64,000 bases of DNA from Candidatus Cybelea sp. (lineage in GTDB: Bacteria > Vulcanimicrobiota > Vulcanimicrobiia > Vulcanimicrobiales > Vulcanimicrobiaceae), in NCBI GenBank assembly GCA_036489315.1, contig DASXFZ010000013.1:1-64000 (forward strand), read 5' to 3'. This document shows, piece by piece, positions 43,264-50,408 of the stretch. Position 1 is the stretch's first letter; every line of letters begins with the position of its first letter. A program made the position numbers and the translations under genes. The notes under the pieces were generated by a model. The model was not told the origin of the DNA. It searched no databases and saw nothing but the letters and a program-made list of their open reading frames with translations.

Positions 43264-43572
43264 ATGGCGAAACAAATGATCCGCATCCGCCTCAAGGCGT
43301 ACGACCACAAAGTGCTCGATCAGTCGGCGGAACGGATCGTTGAGACCGCCAAGCGTACCGGCGCGTTCGTTAGCGGGCCGGTCCCGCTGCCGACCGAGAT
43401 CAACCGTTTCTGCGTGCAGCGCTCGACCAACAACGATAAGAAGTCGCGCGAGCACTTCGAAATGCGCACGCACAAGCGTCTCATCGACATTCTTCAAGCG
43501 TCGCCCAAGACGATGGACGCGCTGATGCACCTCGACTTGCCCGCCGGCGTGGATATCGAGCTGAAGGCCTAG
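43264..43572 (+). CDS. rpsJ: 30S ribosomal protein S10
   Basis: S10 of the 30S head (also NusE in antitermination), 102 aa, normal length. It shows [39 protein letters not shown] and [12 protein letters not shown]. It starts 11 bp after tuf. Normally rplC follows within a few bases; here rplC is 6.2 kb away and unrelated genes come next. Confidence 0.97.
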
Positions 43573-43624
43573 CCTTCTCGCTCCCGCCGAGCGTCCCAAC
43601 GCGCCCGCAAAGAGGAAACCTTCG

Positions 43625-43653
43625 TTGACGCGTTAACGCGCCTGTGCTACGTT
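43625..43653 (+). promoter_or_regulatory. promoter with 12-bp palindrome
   Basis: TTGACG (43625-43630), 17 nt, TACGTT (43648-43653). A perfect palindrome CGCGTTAACGCG (43629-43640) overlaps the -35 end and spacer, as an operator would. Downstream, GTAACG (43671-43676) and CGTTAC (43693-43698) enclose a CTCGAG-centred inverted repeat in the leader. It would serve the DUF5654-like gene at 43822. Confidence 0.5.
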
Positions 43654-43821
43654 CACCGTACCGAGCAGGTGTAACGGCGGTCTCGAGCCGGTCGTTACCG
43701 TGACGCGCTGTTCGTCGTCGGCCTCCGCGAACAGGCCCGCGTCAGCGGATCGGGCCGGGTCAAGCATCCGGCCCGCTCCTCGTTGGCGGTAATGCCCCGT
43801 TGCCGGAACGAAGAGCCACGG

Positions 43822-44088
43822 ATGGAAGTGAAGTCGAGCTACATCGGTACCATGATCGGTCTTGCGACGGTGGCCTTCGGCCTGATCGCCGCCGGTGCGT
43901 GGAACAAGTTCATCAGCGACGTCATCGCGCTCTTTCTCAAGCCCGGCAGCGGGGTCGTCGCCGAGTTGGTCTATGCGGTCGTGATTACGATCATCGCGAT
44001 CGTCGTCGTCCAGAGCCTCGCCAAGCTCGCCGAAAAAGAGGCGGAGCTCACGGCGAAGCTTCCGTTCTCGAAGAAGCCGCAGGAGTAG
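43822..44088 (+). CDS. DUF5654-like small membrane protein
   Basis: An 88-aa protein with two hydrophobic helices: TMIGLATVAFGLIAAGAWNK and AELVYAVVITIIAIVVVQSL, then a charged Lys/Glu C-terminus. The pattern ATVAFGLIAAGAWN matches the DUF5654 family as I remember it. ATG 43822 is preferred; an upstream ATG at 43783 would add residues unlike the family. It sits at the first position of the block inserted between rpsJ and rplC and has its own candidate promoter. Function unknown. Confidence 0.75.
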   Translation: MEVKSSYIGTMIGLATVAFGLIAAGAWNKFISDVIALFLKPGSGVVAELVYAVVITIIAIVVVQSLAKLAEKEAELTAKLPFSKKPQE

Positions 44089-44090
44089 CG

Positions 44091-44531
44091 CTAGCCCTCC
44101 GCAGCGCCGTTCGATCTCTTCGGCGGCCTCCCCGAACGGATTCGGAACGCCAGCTCCGGGCGGTGCTGCAGCGGCGGATAAACGTGCGCCCGCACCTCGA
44201 AGCCTTTCTTTTCAAGGCCTAATCCCAGCGCGGCTTGCTGGATGCCGTGCAGGATCGCGGCGTTGAGCGTCTCGTCGGCGACGCTTAAATCCATCAGGCT
44301 GTCGATGTGGCGGCTCTTCGTCAGCAGCGTGAGCCGGATCTCACCGGGAATCCGCTGCGACTCTTGCTCTTCGTCGAGGGGATCGTGAAAGACGACGACG
44401 TGGCGATCCTCATAGACGACCTCGTTGCCGGCGACGAGGTGCTCCCATGCCTTGCGCTCCTTGATCCAGCGCGGCTGCGCTCCCAGAACGTCGACGGGCG
44501 CAATGCCCCGCTTTAAAGCATCCTCGCTCAT
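44091..44531 (-). CDS. HIT-like protein lacking the catalytic histidine triad
   Basis: A 146-aa protein that aligns with its divergent neighbour (44613-45056): both have EVVYED at the start of the domain, a SLxDLSV/DISLGD segment, ILHGIQQAALGLGLEKKGF against GGIQKVALSLGLYETGF, and YPPLQH against LPPYQH. Where the active HIT protein has HVHIHIL, this one has ELAFRIR, so all triad histidines are gone. It is likely a pseudoenzyme or regulatory partner rather than a hydrolase. ATG 44531 or 44546 could be the start. Confidence 0.65.
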   Translation of the reverse strand: MSEDALKRGIAPVDVLGAQPRWIKERKAWEHLVAGNEVVYEDRHVVVFHDPLDEEQESQRIPGEIRLTLLTKSRHIDSLMDLSVADETLNAAILHGIQQAALGLGLEKKGFEVRAHVYPPLQHRPELAFRIRSGRPPKRSNGAAEG

Positions 44532-44612
44532 GCATTTGCCGTTCACCCGTTTTGCAGCGATTGCCTGCCGCCAAAGGACGTTGCTCGCCGCGTCGGAAAG
44601 CCAGCCTGACCA

Positions 44613-45056
44613 ATGACACGTTGGCTTTCAGAATTAATCGGCGGTCCCGAGCAGTCGGTGTGGGAAAAGCCCGACCCCAACCACACGTTCCGCGGACGGC
44701 TCGACGGTACGCGGGCAAAGGCCGATGAAGTCGTCTACGAAGACGACGAGGTTTTTGCCTTTCGTCACAACATCGACCCGAGCAAAGAGGAATGGTGGGA
44801 GATCCACGTCGTCATCATCCCGAAGAAATGGGTCCCGACGATTCTCGATATCTCGCTGGGCGACGCCTACATCTGGCACCGCCTGATCGGCGGCATTCAA
44901 AAGGTCGCCCTCTCCTTGGGCCTCTACGAAACGGGTTTTATGATTCGGATGGGCGTCCTGCCTCCGTATCAGCACACGGAGCACGTGCACATCCACATCC
45001 TCTCGGGTAAACACCGCTCCACCGTCGTCGACGGGCCGCTTCCGGATGTCAGCTGA
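44613..45056 (+). CDS. HIT family protein
   Basis: A 147-aa histidine-triad protein, the fold of nucleotide hydrolases/transferases such as Hint and AP4A hydrolase. The triad is EHVHIHILSG with His124, His126 and His128. The N-terminal half has VVYEDDEVFAFRHNIDPSK and IHVVIIPKKWVPTILDI. The GIQKVALSLGLYETGF helix matches the degenerate paralogue on the other strand. Its end overlaps the chromate transporter gene by 11 bp. The substrate is unknown. Confidence 0.88.
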   Translation: MTRWLSELIGGPEQSVWEKPDPNHTFRGRLDGTRAKADEVVYEDDEVFAFRHNIDPSKEEWWEIHVVIIPKKWVPTILDISLGDAYIWHRLIGGIQKVALSLGLYETGFMIRMGVLPPYQHTEHVHIHILSGKHRSTVVDGPLPDVS

Positions 45057-45603
45057 CGCGCGGCCGTCGCTGACAAGCATCGCGTTCGCCTTTGCCAGCA
45101 TCTCCGCCACCTCGTTCGGCGGCGGCCAGAAGGCTTCGATCCGCCAACAGGTGCTCGCGCGCGGCTGGATGGACGCCGATGGTTTTCTCGACGGTTTGGA
45201 GATCGCGCAGGTGCTGCCCGGGCCGAACCTGCTCAACCTCGCGATCTACTGCGGGCAGAAAGTTCGCGGCGTGCCGGGAGCGCTTGCCGCGTTCTGCGGC
45301 GCAAGCGTACCGCCGTTCGTCATCGTACTAATAGCCGGCGCGCTCTACTTTAAATACGCGGCAAATCCGTTCGTCGCGGGCGCTCTGCGCGGCTGCGCCG
45401 CCGGCGCGCTCGGATTAACGATCGGCAACGCACTCGAACTGACCTGGGACGAACGCAAGAGCTGGTACGCGATCGCGCTGGTCGCGATTACCGCGGCCGC
45501 CGTCTCGCTGCTGCGCATGCCGCTGCTGCTGGTGCTCGTGGTCTTCGGCGGGGCCGGCGTCGTTTTCGAAACGCTGCGAAGCCGGCGAGAAGCACGTGGC
45601 TGA
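45046..45603 (+). CDS. chromate transporter (CHR family), first half-size subunit
   Basis: A 185-aa membrane protein with one CHR domain: SISATSFGGGQKASIRQQVL (the FGG motif), EIAQVLPGPNLLNLAIYCG and several hydrophobic spans. Short-chain CHR proteins work as pairs of homologous subunits with opposite topology, and the second is encoded next. They export chromate or related oxyanions, although many homologues have no tested substrate. It starts within the HIT gene and overlaps the second subunit by 8 bp. Confidence 0.88.
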   Translation: MSADARPSLTSIAFAFASISATSFGGGQKASIRQQVLARGWMDADGFLDGLEIAQVLPGPNLLNLAIYCGQKVRGVPGALAAFCGASVPPFVIVLIAGALYFKYAANPFVAGALRGCAAGALGLTIGNALELTWDERKSWYAIALVAITAAAVSLLRMPLLLVLVVFGGAGVVFETLRSRREARG

Positions 45604-46138
45604 CACCTTTCATTCGGTGCTGCAGCTGCTCTGGGTCTTCGCGCAGCTCTCGGTGCTGGGCTTCGGCGGCGGAAAAGGGATCATCCCGCAGATGCACACC
45701 GACGCGGTGGCGACGCACCACTGGGTTTCGTCGCAGCGGTTCACGCAGTTCTATACGATCGGCAAGCTCGTCCCCGGCCCCACCACGATCTTTGCGGCAT
45801 TGATCGGCTACGCGGCGACGCCCTCGCGCCCGCTGCTGGGCGCGGCCGTCGCCACTATCGGAATGTTCGTACCCTCCAGCCTGATCATGATTGCGTTTGA
45901 CGCGCTGTGGCGGCGCTTCGCCGCATCGCCGTGGCGCGCCATCATCTCGCGCGGCCTCGCTCCGGCGATTGTCGGGCTCGTCTGGTCGAGCGTGATGACG
46001 ATCGCCCGCGGCGCGCCATCGTCGGTTATAGCCTACGTGACGGCGGCGGTGGTGGTCGTACTGATGCTGCGCACGAAGATCAGCGCGCCGCTGCTCATCC
46101 TCCTCAGCGGTGGCGTAGGGGTCGTCGCGCTTCGATAA
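45596..46138 (+). CDS. chromate transporter (CHR family), second half-size subunit
   Basis: A 180-aa membrane protein, partner of the preceding CHR subunit. It has LWVFAQLSVLGFGGGKGIIPQ with the FGGG signature, TIGKLVPGPTTIFAALIGYA (the PGP motif) and hydrophobic spans up to LLILLSGGVGVVAL. The start is GTG at 45596. The two CHR genes are translationally coupled and form the usual antiparallel pair. Confidence 0.88.
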   Translation: MADTFHSVLQLLWVFAQLSVLGFGGGKGIIPQMHTDAVATHHWVSSQRFTQFYTIGKLVPGPTTIFAALIGYAATPSRPLLGAAVATIGMFVPSSLIMIAFDALWRRFAASPWRAIISRGLAPAIVGLVWSSVMTIARGAPSSVIAYVTAAVVVVLMLRTKISAPLLILLSGGVGVVALR

Positions 46139-46153
46139 GCGAACGAACGGCGG

Positions 46154-46579
46154 ATGCCCATCGACCTTCACGAGCTCCGTTCGCGCTCGTTCCACGGCAC
46201 GAAACGCCGCATCTACCATTTGCTCGAGGAGATGGGTACCTCCGGCGATCAGATCTGGCCGTTTGCCTCGCAGCCCTTCATGCGCTCTCCGGGCCCGCTG
46301 ACGCCGGGGCGTACCGAAGAGTGGCACCTCGGCATCCATAGTATCCTCGAAGAGGCTGTTCCCGAGGAGCGGATCGTGTGGCGCTTTCAAAACGAGGGAT
46401 TCGACGGCACGCACGCGTTCGTCTTGGGAACGCTGGGGAAGGAGACGGTCGTGGAGTACCGCGTCGATGCGACGCTCTCCGATACCGACGGACGTCTGCT
46501 GTGGCGGCGCTTCGAAGATCAGTTCGAACGATCGATCGAAGCCCTCTTCGACAAGCTTGCGCGCGTCCTCAAGCGCTAA
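46154..46579 (+). CDS. hypothetical protein, possibly SRPBCC fold
   Basis: A 141-aa soluble protein. The order of short strands (WPFASQPFMRSPGPLTPG, WHLGIHSILEEAVPEERIVW, in parts) followed by TVVEYRVDATLSD, RLLWRRFEDQFERS and a long C-terminal helix suggests a START/SRPBCC-like domain such as polyketide cyclase or DUF1857-type proteins. No motif is decisive. It is 12 bp before gcdH on the same strand and may be co-transcribed with it. Confidence 0.55.
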   Translation: MPIDLHELRSRSFHGTKRRIYHLLEEMGTSGDQIWPFASQPFMRSPGPLTPGRTEEWHLGIHSILEEAVPEERIVWRFQNEGFDGTHAFVLGTLGKETVVEYRVDATLSDTDGRLLWRRFEDQFERSIEALFDKLARVLKR

Positions 46580-46591
46580 CCGTCCGTAGCG

Positions 46592-47752
46592 ATGCCTGAT
46601 CCAGTCGACTTCATCGACGTTTCGGGTTTGCTCTCCGACGAAGAGCGGCTCGTTCGCGACACCGTCCGCGCCTACGTGCGCGAGCGCATCACGCCGCAGG
46701 TCGCGCAGTGGTTCGAAGAAGGAATCCTACCGCGCGAACTGGGGCCGGAACTCGGCCGGCTCGGCCTGTTGGGGATGCATCTCGAAGGTTACGGCTGCGC
46801 GGGCGCGAGCGCCGTCGCTTATGGCATCGCGTGTCTCGAACTCGAGGCCGGCGACTCGGGCGTGCGCAGCTTCGCCTCGGTGCAGGGGTCGCTTGCGATG
46901 TATTCGATCTGGCGCTGGGGTGACGAAGCACAAAAGGAGCGCTGGCTTCCGGCGATGGCGCGCGGCGAAGTCATCGGCTGCTTCGGCCTTACCGAGCCGG
47001 ATTTCGGCAGCAATCCCGCCGGCATGCGCACCTCCGCGCGGCGCGATGGACCGGACTGGGTCCTCGACGGCACCAAGATGTGGATCACGAACGGATCGAT
47101 CGCCGATCTGGCGATCGTTTGGGCGCAGACCGCCGACGGCATTCGCGGGTTTATCGTTCCGCGCGACACGCCTGGCTTTAGCGCTTCTGACATTCACAAG
47201 AAGCTTTCGCTGCGGGCCTCGGTTACGAGCGAGCTCGCGCTGAACGGATGCCGGCTCCCGGCCGACGCGCTTCTGCCCAACGGCGGAGGACTGGGCGCCC
47301 CGCTCTCGTGCCTGAACGAAGCGCGCTACGGAATCATCTGGGGCGCGATGGGCGCCGCACGCAGCTGCTACGAAACGGCGCTGGAGTACGGCAAGACGCG
47401 CGTGCAGTTCGACCGGCCGATCGGGGGCTTTCAGCTCACGCAGGCCAAGCTCGTGGACATGCTGCTCGAACTGAACAAAGGTACGCTGCTCGCACTGCAT
47501 CTTGGCCGCGCGAAGGACGAGCACCGGCTGCATCCCTCGCAGGTCAGCTTCGCGAAGCTCAACAACGTCCGCGAGGCGCTTGCGATCGCTCGCGCGGCGC
47601 GCACGATCCTCGGCGCAAACGGCGTGACCCTCGAGTACCCGGTGATCCGGCACATGAACAACCTCGAGTCGGTGCTGACCTACGAGGGAACCAGCGAGAT
47701 GCACGCGCTGGTCGTCGGCAAAGAAGTTACCGGCATCGCCGCCTTTACATAA
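46592..47752 (+). CDS. gcdH: glutaryl-CoA dehydrogenase
   Basis: GcdH oxidises and decarboxylates glutaryl-CoA to crotonyl-CoA with FAD, in lysine, tryptophan and aromatic breakdown. The 386-aa protein has the glutarate-binding Arg in GVRSFASVQGSLAM, GCFGLTEPDFGSNPAGM, SLRASVTSELALNGC, CLNEARYGIIWGAMGAA and the catalytic base Glu365 in LTYEGTSEMHAL. These differ from ordinary acyl-CoA dehydrogenases and match GCDH closely. It may drain carbon from the aromatic CoA route encoded at 19-34 kb, an inference. It is in the block between rpsJ and rplC. Confidence 0.88.
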   Translation: MPDPVDFIDVSGLLSDEERLVRDTVRAYVRERITPQVAQWFEEGILPRELGPELGRLGLLGMHLEGYGCAGASAVAYGIACLELEAGDSGVRSFASVQGSLAMYSIWRWGDEAQKERWLPAMARGEVIGCFGLTEPDFGSNPAGMRTSARRDGPDWVLDGTKMWITNGSIADLAIVWAQTADGIRGFIVPRDTPGFSASDIHKKLSLRASVTSELALNGCRLPADALLPNGGGLGAPLSCLNEARYGIIWGAMGAARSCYETALEYGKTRVQFDRPIGGFQLTQAKLVDMLLELNKGTLLALHLGRAKDEHRLHPSQVSFAKLNNVREALAIARAARTILGANGVTLEYPVIRHMNNLESVLTYEGTSEMHALVVGKEVTGIAAFT

Positions 47753-47760
47753 CCGCAGGC

Positions 47761-49614
47761 CTACACGTAGTCCGCGAGCTTGAGGTTGACGTCGCGCTCG
47801 CCCGTTGCATTGCGCACGTGCAAGTGGACGACGGTGCCCGCCGATCCCGAGAGCAGACCGCGCAGTGCCGCGAGCGACATGCGCGAAGCCGGTCCGCCGT
47901 CGACGCTGACGATCACGTCGTCCTTGGCGAGCCCGGCAGCGGCCGCCGGGGAACCCGCGATCGCCGAAAGCACCGTGAACTCACCGGCGCGATCGATGAG
48001 GAAGAGGCCCGAGCGATCGTACGGGAAGCTCGAATCGAACGCGGCGCTCTTCACTAGATACAGCGCGTGCTTGCCGTAGTCGAAGGTGACGACGAAACGC
48101 CGCCAGACCCCACCGCCGAGGTTGGCGGGATTATAGGGATTCGAAAACGCGCCCGACTTGTCGCTGGTGAAGTCGGCGATGCTGTTGGCGATCGTGAACG
48201 GTCCGATCGTCAGGTTGGGAATCCGCCCCAGACGCCCGAACGACGGACCGCCGACCCCGAAGCCCGTTACTCCTACTGGCGTCTTGGCAAGCGCGGCGAT
48301 CGTTGGGTTCTGCGCGAGGAACGGAGCAGCGAGCGTCAGCGCGGCGCGGCTGCCGGTGTCGACTTCGGCGCTCGTCGTCACGCCGTCGACGCCGACGTCG
48401 ATGCGCGGGATCGTCCCGTCGATGATGAAGGGAAGGCTGGCGCTGCCGGCAGGCGGCGACGCGCTTGCGGGCATCGTCAGCGTCATCTTCGCGTTTGCGT
48501 AGTCGATCGTCGTGACGTAGCGCGCCAAGAACTGGTAGCCGAGCATCCCGTCGATCTGCATTCCCTCGCCCATTCCGAATCCGGTGGCGATCGGGAGCAC
48601 GAGCACGTATTGATTGCCGACCTTCGCGCTGCCGACGCCGATCGAATCGATGCGCGCGAAGGCGGCGCCCTCGGTTTGGCTGCCGACTCCGCCGAGCTGC
48701 GCCTCTCCGGAGGTTTTCGCGCCCAGGCGTCTGGCGAGCTCGGGCGTCACGATGTAATCGCCGCCGCTATCGAGCACGAACGTGTAGGGGCCGCGCCCGT
48801 TGAGCATTACGCTGACGTAGAGGTGGTTGTTGACGACCTGGACTGGTACGGTCGCGGTAGTTGCGCCGGCAATCGAGAAATCGTGGAGGTGCTGCGCCGG
48901 AAGATTCATCCGCTCGCCGATCGGCTCGTTGAGCACGAGGGCGCCGGTGCGACTGCTCGTCGCGTTTCCTTCAGAGGTCCTCGTACTGGTGAGAAACGGA
49001 TAGGTGAGGCCGTCGACGCGGTGATAGTTGGAAAGAACCGTCGTCGCCGAGACGTTGCCGAAGCTGGTATTCTCACGCGCGATGAGGTGTGTCTGCTCGT
49101 CGAGCCAGAGGTCGATCTCGCTGCCGTTCGCCGGGGTCACCGCGAGCACGTCGTAAGTGCGGCCGTTGTCGCTTCGGCTGCCGGCGTAGACGACGACGGC
49201 GCCGCCGGCGCCGGGCTTGAGATAGCCAAGCGTCGCCAGATAGGCTTGATCGATCGCCTGCTGGCGGCCGGGGATTCCGCCGTCCACCGTGACGAGGCCG
49301 GAGTAGTCCTGGTTCCAGGCAACGCTCCCGGTCCAGCCGCTTGCTCCGGTGAGGGCCCCGCCGGCCTGCGAGCTGTAGAAGCGACCGGCGCGGACGTCGT
49401 CCCACTCCGCCGCGGTCGCGCGAATTCCCACCGCCTCCATGCTGCCCGTGGTATGAATCGAGGTGATCGAGCCGATCGGGCGGCCGAGCGTCGCCTTGCG
49501 CAAAGCGTCGAGCAGCGCCGCCGTCGGCGTGGCGGCTGCCGCCGGGGCCGTCGATAGCACCGCTGGCAGGTAAATTGCGGCAAAAAGAACCGAAATCCGG
49601 CGATTGCGCGGCAT
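47761..49614 (-). CDS. aspartyl protease-like protein with C-terminal PDZ domain, exported
   Basis: A 617-aa exported protein. MPRNRRISVLFAAIYLP begins a signal peptide (to about APAAAA). The N-terminal third has outer-membrane lipoprotein-like strands (SVAWNQDYSGLVTVDGG). Two retropepsin-like half sites follow, FVLDSGGDYIVTPE and SAEVDTGSRAALTL, and the last 100 residues form a PDZ domain (SAIAGSPAAAAGLAKDDVIV, SVDGGPASRM). The fold is that of bacterial aspartyl protease/PDZ proteins. Proteolysis is not shown. The gene is divergent from rplC, and its start at ATG 49614 leaves room for the rplC promoter. Confidence 0.8.
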   Translation of the reverse strand: MPRNRRISVLFAAIYLPAVLSTAPAAAATPTAALLDALRKATLGRPIGSITSIHTTGSMEAVGIRATAAEWDDVRAGRFYSSQAGGALTGASGWTGSVAWNQDYSGLVTVDGGIPGRQQAIDQAYLATLGYLKPGAGGAVVVYAGSRSDNGRTYDVLAVTPANGSEIDLWLDEQTHLIARENTSFGNVSATTVLSNYHRVDGLTYPFLTSTRTSEGNATSSRTGALVLNEPIGERMNLPAQHLHDFSIAGATTATVPVQVVNNHLYVSVMLNGRGPYTFVLDSGGDYIVTPELARRLGAKTSGEAQLGGVGSQTEGAAFARIDSIGVGSAKVGNQYVLVLPIATGFGMGEGMQIDGMLGYQFLARYVTTIDYANAKMTLTMPASASPPAGSASLPFIIDGTIPRIDVGVDGVTTSAEVDTGSRAALTLAAPFLAQNPTIAALAKTPVGVTGFGVGGPSFGRLGRIPNLTIGPFTIANSIADFTSDKSGAFSNPYNPANLGGGVWRRFVVTFDYGKHALYLVKSAAFDSSFPYDRSGLFLIDRAGEFTVLSAIAGSPAAAAGLAKDDVIVSVDGGPASRMSLAALRGLLSGSAGTVVHLHVRNATGERDVNLKLADYV

Positions 49615-49640
49615 GCGGGCTAGTACGAGGGCGCTGCGCC

Positions 49641-49669
49641 TTGACCTCGCGCTACGGCCCTGATACACT
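49641..49669 (+). promoter_or_regulatory. rplC (split S10 operon) promoter
   Basis: TTGACC (49641-49646), 17 nt, TACACT (49664-49669), preceded by TGA (TGATACACT). This fits the rpoB/rpsL/tuf pattern and shows that the displaced rplC-rpsM segment has its own strong promoter. Confidence 0.78.
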
Positions 49670-49687
49670 GCCGAAGTTGCGGTTGAG

Positions 49688-49750
49688 GCCGGTACGCTTT
49701 TTCATGATGCGGACCGGCAAAAAAGATTTACCAATACGCCTGGCCCCGTG
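49688..49750 (+). promoter_or_regulatory. rplC leader: hairpin and element shared with tuf leader
   Basis: GCCGGT (49688-49693) pairs with ACCGGC (49713-49718), with CGC/GCG pairing inside it and AAAAAAG after. Then AATACGCCTGGCCCCGTG (49733-49750) repeats the tuf leader element AATACGCCTGGGTCCGTG with 16 of 18 bases identical. Its position, between promoter and first ribosomal gene in both cases, suggests shared control of the two transcripts. Confidence 0.55.
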
Positions 49751-49778
49751 GCCTCGCACTCTCTAAGAGAACGGACGA

Positions 49779-50408
49779 ATGAAGAACATCCTGGGCCGTA
49801 AAGTCGGGATGACCAGCATCTTCACCTCTGACGGGCGTTCTGTCCCGGTGACGGTGATCGCTGCCGGTCCCTGCACGGTCGTCGATCGGCGGACGAAGGA
49901 AACGCATGGCTACGAAGCCGTGGCGCTGGGTTTCGAGCCGCGCAAGCGCGGCTCGGTGACGCGCCCCATGGCCGGCTACTTCAAGAAGCAAGGCGTCGAA
50001 CCGGTCCGGTTCGTGAGGGAGTTTCGCGGCCCGCAGGAATGTGAAGTCGGCGATACGGTGACGGTCTCGGGCTTCGAGCCCGGCGATCGCGTCGACGTCT
50101 CCGGGGTCTCGAAGGGACACGGATTCTCGGGCGGCATCAAGCGGCATAACTTCCGCGGCGGCGGCGCGAGCCACGGATCGATGATCCATCGCCAGCCCGC
50201 GTCGAACGGCGACACCAACGCCGGCCGGACGGTCAAAGGCAGCCGCCGGCCCGGCCACTTCGGCGTCGACCGCACCACGTTACAGAATCTCGAAGTCGTC
50301 CAAGCCGACGGCGAGCGCAATCTGCTGCTCGTCCGCGGCGCGGTCCCCGGCGGCAAGAACGCGCTGGTGATTGTGACGCAGAGCGTGAAGACGCGAGGGA
50401 AGGCCTAA
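49779..50408 (+). CDS. rplC: 50S ribosomal protein L3
   Basis: L3, 209 aa. It shows MKNILGRKVGMTSIFTSDGR, the KGHGFSGGIKRHNFRGGGAS loop that reaches the peptidyl-transferase centre, RRPGHFGVDRTTLQNL and a Val-rich C-terminus. It is the first gene of the resumed cluster, with its own promoter 110 bp upstream. It overlaps rplD by one base. Confidence 0.97.
   Translation: MKNILGRKVGMTSIFTSDGRSVPVTVIAAGPCTVVDRRTKETHGYEAVALGFEPRKRGSVTRPMAGYFKKQGVEPVRFVREFRGPQECEVGDTVTVSGFEPGDRVDVSGVSKGHGFSGGIKRHNFRGGGASHGSMIHRQPASNGDTNAGRTVKGSRRPGHFGVDRTTLQNLEVVQADGERNLLLVRGAVPGGKNALVIVTQSVKTRGKA

Follow-up and report, generated by a model that had tools for sequence, protein, structure and literature searches.

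A predicted HIT-fold protein without its histidine triad, encoded divergently from a triad-bearing paralogue in a four-gene cassette with two chromate-transporter-family genes

HIT-family proteins of solved structure form dimers, and the middle histidine of the triad is the nucleophile in HIT enzymes. GalT carries two HIT-like repeats in one chain, one of which is catalytic, and is a precedent for a live and a dead HIT pair. The two proteins described here, HIT (triad present) and pHIT (triad absent), differ from the halves of GalT and DcpS in that each is a protein of its own, the two genes being divergently transcribed and associated with a transporter, although the model of pHIT aligns with DcpS at a Z of about 8 (VIA-align). 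HIT resembles the HinT/HINT branch (PF01230) in its fold, its histidine triad, a His at position 65 and a Gln before the triad. The pair is distinguished from that branch by a longer N-terminal segment, by an Asp to His replacement in HIT and by its separate grouping in the tree described below.

Activity on adenosine 5'-phosphosulfate is described for Fhit, which converts this compound (PMC8704414), and for Hint4 and DcpS in the title of a 2010 paper cited in the same source. MccH is a specialised HIT enzyme in a small, microcin C-like gene cluster and in this respect is similar to HIT; the passages on that cluster in PMC7157772 mention no pseudo-HIT protein, and its pump is MccC, not a protein of the chromate-transporter (CHR) family. 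Bacillus subtilis YwrB/YwrA, two adjacent PF02417 proteins of approximately 180 aa, are presented in parts of PMC8940164 as a chromium efflux system under the Lrp-type regulator ChrS, the regulation of which is said there to prevent sulfate loss. The CHR genes of the present locus encode a similar adjacent doublet, but they belong to a distinct group, are accompanied by the HIT pair at all 20 linked loci and lie in a four-gene unit which includes no regulator gene. Searches of the open-access full-text literature revealed no link between HIT proteins and a chromate transporter, no HIT pseudoenzyme ("histidine triad" with "pseudoenzyme") and nothing for "Eremiobacter" with "histidine triad".

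The locus is located in a window of 64,000 nucleotides (the whole stretch of DNA that was analysed) from a soil-type bacterium, Candidatus Cybelea sp. The original prediction described two divergent genes, 82 bp apart, for related HIT-fold proteins, one with HVHIH and one with ELAFR at the same place. Both reading frames and both motifs were found, with 81 bp between the two ATG codons. The pair thus stands as it was observed, but the wider unit had been overlooked: the pair constitutes half of a four-gene unit completed by a CHR doublet. The following features were identified:

44091..44531, minus strand: pHIT, predicted HIT-fold protein without the histidine triad (146 aa; paralogue alignment, model, structure matches)
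44142..44156, minus strand: ELAFR (pHIT residues 126-130), replacing HVHIH (alignment)
44532..44612, no strand: divergent intergenic region between pHIT and HIT (81 bp between ATGs)
44613..45056, plus strand: HIT, predicted catalytic-type HIT protein (147 aa; Pfam, alignment)
44982..44996, plus strand: HVHIH histidine triad (HIT residues 124-128; sequence, alignment)
45046..45603, plus strand: CHR1, short-chain chromate-transporter-family protein (185 aa; Pfam PF02417, E 1.8e-33)
45596..46138, plus strand: CHR2, second short-chain chromate-transporter-family protein (180 aa from the GTG at 45596; PF02417, E 2.1e-35)

The start of pHIT was taken as the ATG at 44531, the listed open reading frame beginning upstream at a GTG (44546), while the actual start of CHR2 is perhaps slightly downstream of its GTG. 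CHR1 and CHR2 scored 116.4 and 122.6 bits with PF02417 (cut-off 28.6) and, being in addition a pair of genes of about 180 aa, were assigned to the CHR family. In 17 of 20 loci, that of the window among them, the reading frames of HIT and CHR1 share 11 nt, the ATG of CHR1 lying ahead of the end of HIT; the overlap is absent as annotated in G016, whose CHR1 frame is disrupted close to an ambiguous base, and in G019 and G116. Across 21 loci the pHIT-HIT intergenic region is 56-106 bp long. An AGGACG block in this region was seen by eye in at least 14 of the 21, mostly as AGGACGCCTG, and is perhaps an operator or part of a promoter. Relatives of pHIT mostly read ELAFK or EVAFK at the ELAFR place, and HIT contains a strongly conserved segment, WEKPDP-x-HTFRGRLDGTR.

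That the two proteins are related was confirmed by BLASTP, which gave 35% identity over 101 aa (E 3e-18 in a single comparison). HIT matched PF01230 with an E of 2.2e-08 (35 bits, cut-off 21.5). This family was not listed for pHIT, for which the sole Pfam match was DcpS_C, below the cut-off (E 0.0021, 19 bits against 24), and a profile built from 18 pHITs gave weak matches to solved HIT proteins, the best with an E of 0.0061. The HIT fold of pHIT is therefore assigned from the paralogue alignment, an AlphaFold2 model and the structural matches of that model. The model is of moderate quality (pLDDT 71.7, pTM 0.60). Among Foldseek matches with E of 0.001 or less, the best 50 of 55 were all HIT proteins, headed by 6g9z (E 1.5e-05, TM 0.51/0.61), and the best VIA-align match was to a HIT hydrolase (Z 9.7, rmsd 3.5, 105 aligned). 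Based on this moderate model, pHIT is predicted to have the HIT fold, as had been claimed. The model of HIT was weaker (pLDDT 62.0, pTM 0.59) and also matched HIT proteins. Chance resemblance of the two proteins was rejected on the BLASTP alignment and the occurrence of the pair in 21 of 99 family genomes. With the NCBIfam HinT equivalog NF007965, HIT scored 37.2 bits against a cut-off of 206 and pHIT was unmatched. A weak PADLOC match of HIT to ThsC (E 0.0059) was also recorded.

All three triad histidines are present in 20 of 20 complete HIT copies, and based on this conserved triad HIT is probably a catalytic-type enzyme. None of the 21 pHIT copies keeps any of the three. Their places are occupied by Glu in 17 copies (Ala in 2, Phe and Tyr in 1 each), by Ala in 18 (Lys, Thr and Arg in 1 each) and by Lys in 19 (Arg and Gln in 1 each), and all 21 pHITs have Arg where HIT has H65. 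The original prediction treated the triad-bearing copy as intact. Its triad is indeed kept, but an Asp of hinT-type proteins, which we take to be their ribose-binding residue, has been lost: it is present in all five aligned hinT-type proteins (chosen from 32), has become His in 20 of 20 HIT copies, and is found in 20 of 21 pHITs.

In a tree of 73 proteins, a branch with 100/100 support split pHIT and HIT together from 32 further HIT proteins of the phylum; two of these 32 rows are fragments, and long branches make the deepest branching uncertain. The twins are thereby shown to descend from a common ancestor of their own, separate from the other HIT proteins. The pHITs formed one clade, also at 100/100, whereas HIT was monophyletic in merely 41% of bootstrap trees because the placement of G019 and G116 is open. 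This topology fits a single duplication of a divergent HIT protein, probably followed by loss of the triad. Mis-annotation of the pair as ordinary hinT was rejected on account of the separate group; an ordinary HIT gene does occur on the same contig as the window (C13:82997-83281).

The original prediction held that retention of an intact frame suggests selection for a non-catalytic role, put forward heterodimer partner and nucleotide sensor as candidate roles, and named dN/dS as a check against neutral evolution of the degenerate copy. pHIT frames of 140-174 aa are open in 21 of 21 genomes, some residues are invariant, and in eight pairs of close genomes dN/dS (Nei-Gojobori) was 0.070-0.207 for pHIT and 0.046-0.132 for HIT; four of these pairs come from one clade, and two (G026-G077 and G029-G102) are near synonymous saturation (pS >0.5). 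The value was higher for pHIT than for HIT in seven of the eight pairs, the exception being G029-G102. pHIT is thus under purifying selection, its triad replacements are conserved, and each of the 21 genomes has the intact neighbour; these data support the claimed selection and argue against neutral evolution. On the same values the gene is not decaying, and a pseudogene was rejected.

Profile searches for pHIT, undertaken in relatives as the original prediction had proposed, identified the divergent pair in 21 of 99 genomes of the family (Eremiobacterota), in 6 of 38 genera; 4 of the 21 pairs come from drafts less than 70% complete. Strong HIT matches (at least 129 bits) were obtained in the same 21 genomes, the remaining 9 of 30 positive genomes being weak (<33 bits). 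Neither pHIT without HIT nor HIT without pHIT was found by these searches in the 99 family genomes, so that pairing is constant in the sample. Stops flagged by the tool inside pHIT of G030 and G002 were counted as natural because the matches extend to or beyond the protein ends. Within the genus of the window, four genomes (G001, G011, G012 and G014) have neither gene. In the phylum sample 22 of 149 genomes matched the pHIT profile; the 22nd match (G058) turned out to be an ordinary HIT protein, its triad intact (L053 in the tree), and was excluded. When 84,980 species of bacteria and archaea, each represented by one genome, were scanned at a depth that reaches close relatives of pHIT only, 13 pHIT-like loci were identified, all in metagenome-assembled genomes (12 Candidatus Eremiobacterota, 1 Eremiobacteria). 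The cassette was found in a single bacterial family. A plasmid search returned 36 records, all below 60% identity and none covering 80% of HIT.

The gene order pHIT-HIT-CHR1-CHR2 was observed in 20 of 21 loci; in the 21st (G006) the contig stops within HIT, and a different G006 contig has, close to its end, a CHR2 belonging to the same group. The top 21 CHR2 matches in 149 phylum genomes were exactly the 21 genomes with the pair (172-370 bits), followed by matches of 150.5, 148.9, 127.3 and 107.9 bits. No HIT gene was detected by profile at these four loci or at 29 further CHR loci, some on short contigs, apart from two chance-level matches (E 0.5 and 0.74). The controls were a selection, 25 other CHR loci and 8 picked from the CHR2 matches, and not the full set of CHR loci in 56 genomes. 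In the CHR2 tree as labelled, the module group needs three changes, one row, G006c, being labelled "other". We read G006c as probably the cassette CHR2 of G006 itself, on its other contig, because it groups among the cassette rows of G003, G009 and G016; once it is reassigned, all module rows fall to the same side of a branch with 96/96 support. The data show a link of the cassette to one CHR group. Distances of the four genes were correlated in 19 genomes (r 0.88-0.93; G016 and G006 left out), but Spearman values fell to 0.40-0.60 without the two most diverged genomes, so the correlations add little.

Thirteen loci carry the cassette between a DUF5654 gene and a gene for a 141-aa protein, with rpsJ preceding in 12 of 13 and rplC following in 12 of 13. 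CHR2 ends 13-30 bp before the 141-aa gene in the eight filled loci measured, and extra sequence is present in some loci between the DUF5654 gene and pHIT (926 bp in G013, for example). In six genomes the site is empty, the flanking genes lying 27-66 bp apart with nothing between them; for this count 14 genomes were queried for rpsJ, 12 were positive, and 10 loci were examined, while G020, G022, G025 and G036, lacking a DUF5654 match, were uninformative. Four of the six (G003, G009, G016 and G019) have the cassette elsewhere. At the other two, G001 (96% complete) and G012 (79%), no copy of the pair was detected with the pHIT and HIT profiles. Neighbours of other kinds flank the cassette in G003/G009, G016, G006, G019 and G116. 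Based on the differing neighbourhoods and the empty sites the four genes behave as a unit, although draft assemblies may break or misjoin some of these contexts. An association due to the ribosomal genes alone was rejected, as the four genes are missing from this site in six genomes, of which four have them elsewhere.

The rpsJ-rplC interval of the window (43264-50405) holds, besides the cassette, genes for the DUF5654 protein, for the 141-aa protein, which has no match in Pfam, and for an acyl-CoA dehydrogenase, as well as an opposite-strand gene for a 635-aa protein. The DUF5654, 141-aa and dehydrogenase genes stay between rpsJ and rplC without the cassette in six relatives. The DUF5654-pHIT spacer of G007 (188 bp; L182, 4654-4841) consists for the most part of repeated copies of a unit like CCCTTCGACT(C/A)CGCTCAG.

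That all four genes, the transporter doublet included, come and go together points to the twin as a functioning partner rather than a gene in decay. Our preferred reading, to which a probability of about 0.5 is given, is a cassette in which a catalytic HIT protein and its non-catalytic partner form a complex serving a CHR anion transporter. An old duplication of a divergent HIT protein would have produced the enzyme HIT and the twin pHIT, in which Arg and Lys stand at two of the places once held by the triad and by a further active-site histidine. The two would pair into a soluble HIT:pHIT complex acting for the two-subunit transporter; in this scheme HIT would be the hydrolase of a nucleotide-linked compound, and pHIT would recognise a product or effector (nucleotide or oxyanion) and regulate or stabilise either HIT or the transporter. 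What we infer here is that a heterodimer forms and touches the transporter, and what the ligand and the transport direction would be. Identity between the paralogues is highest in the strand after the long helix (0.50), followed by the first two strands (0.40) and the helix itself (0.38), the other six segments ranging from 0.15 to 0.32. The helix and that strand sit at the interface of HINT dimers, but the helix is not the segment most alike, and the likeness may reflect constraints of the fold alone. As pHIT is divergently transcribed, equal dosage with HIT is not assured.

The same divergent orientation, with pHIT facing away from the HIT-CHR genes, speaks for the alternative which survives best, namely that pHIT is unpaired and acts as a free-standing anion or nucleotide sensor or as a direct regulatory subunit of CHR, HIT being a separate enzyme of the same pathway. 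Conserved basic residues of pHIT (R66, R114, K or R130, and R132), placed near the active-site positions by alignment, would suit an anion. However, the co-occurrence data fit pairing equally well, solved HIT-family structures are dimeric, and no partner-free pHIT was found, and we regard this alternative as possible but unlikely.

A narrower form of the cassette reading is more doubtful again: a HIT/pHIT heterodimer might act on a nucleotide-linked oxyanion (for example, an anhydride of the adenylyl-sulfate type), gating or feeding a dedicated two-subunit CHR exporter, with all four genes as one moving cassette. The oxyanion is a natural guess since some HIT proteins act on adenosine 5'-phosphosulfate and the regulation of the Bacillus CHR pair is said to prevent sulfate loss. 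Nothing found ties the HIT/pHIT pair to chromate, sulfate or another named ligand.

That pHIT is itself catalytic, its conserved Arg, Lys, Glu and His residues forming a novel active site, appears improbable. The replacements are specific and conserved (the Glu, Ala and Lys counts given above, and H116 in at least 90% of copies) and purifying selection would agree with catalysis, but the place of the nucleophilic middle histidine is Ala in 18 of 21, and the motif deviates in G019 (FIKLK) and G116 (YLRFK), unlike a conserved catalytic site. As a resistance unit, the cassette would comprise a HIT that cleaves a toxic nucleotide conjugate, comparable to MccH and microcin C, and a CHR pair that removes the released part. 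HIT hydrolases are known to confer such resistance (PMC7157772), and the patchy distribution and the movement of the cassette are in keeping with it; against this, CHR proteins are described in parts of PMC8940164 as transporting chromate, and possibly sulfate as a co-substrate, not as peptide or nucleoside exporters, and the named neighbours (EF-Tu, ribosomal proteins, acyl-CoA dehydrogenase) are not biosynthetic, many others being unannotated. This we consider a long shot. A decaying duplicate retained by chance is hardly credible: the median pN/pS over 210 pairs is higher for pHIT than for HIT (0.366 against 0.207), but the frames are open in all 21 genomes, dN/dS is 0.07-0.21, residues are invariant and the gene moves with HIT and CHR.

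If confirmed, the cassette favoured here would be a case of a HIT enzyme keeping a dead twin as its partner, and would offer a testable handle on the substrate of this CHR group. It can be tested directly by way of the naturally empty sites and the conserved residues that replace the triad.

CHR doublets without HIT genes were also encountered. The genome of the window has a second one, of another group (L157, 2420-3561, contig C10). Two doublets among those nearest to that of the cassette (L194, 3183-6817, and L196, 5008-9741) lie beside NMT1-type binding proteins, and one or other of them has TPP-enzyme, isochorismatase, LigB, Rieske and phosphorylase-type neighbours; on these Pfam domains, NMT1 included, the initial idea of sulfonate catabolism at the sister CHR loci is at most conjectural. 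The context of both hints at CHR pairs linked to a catabolic pathway.
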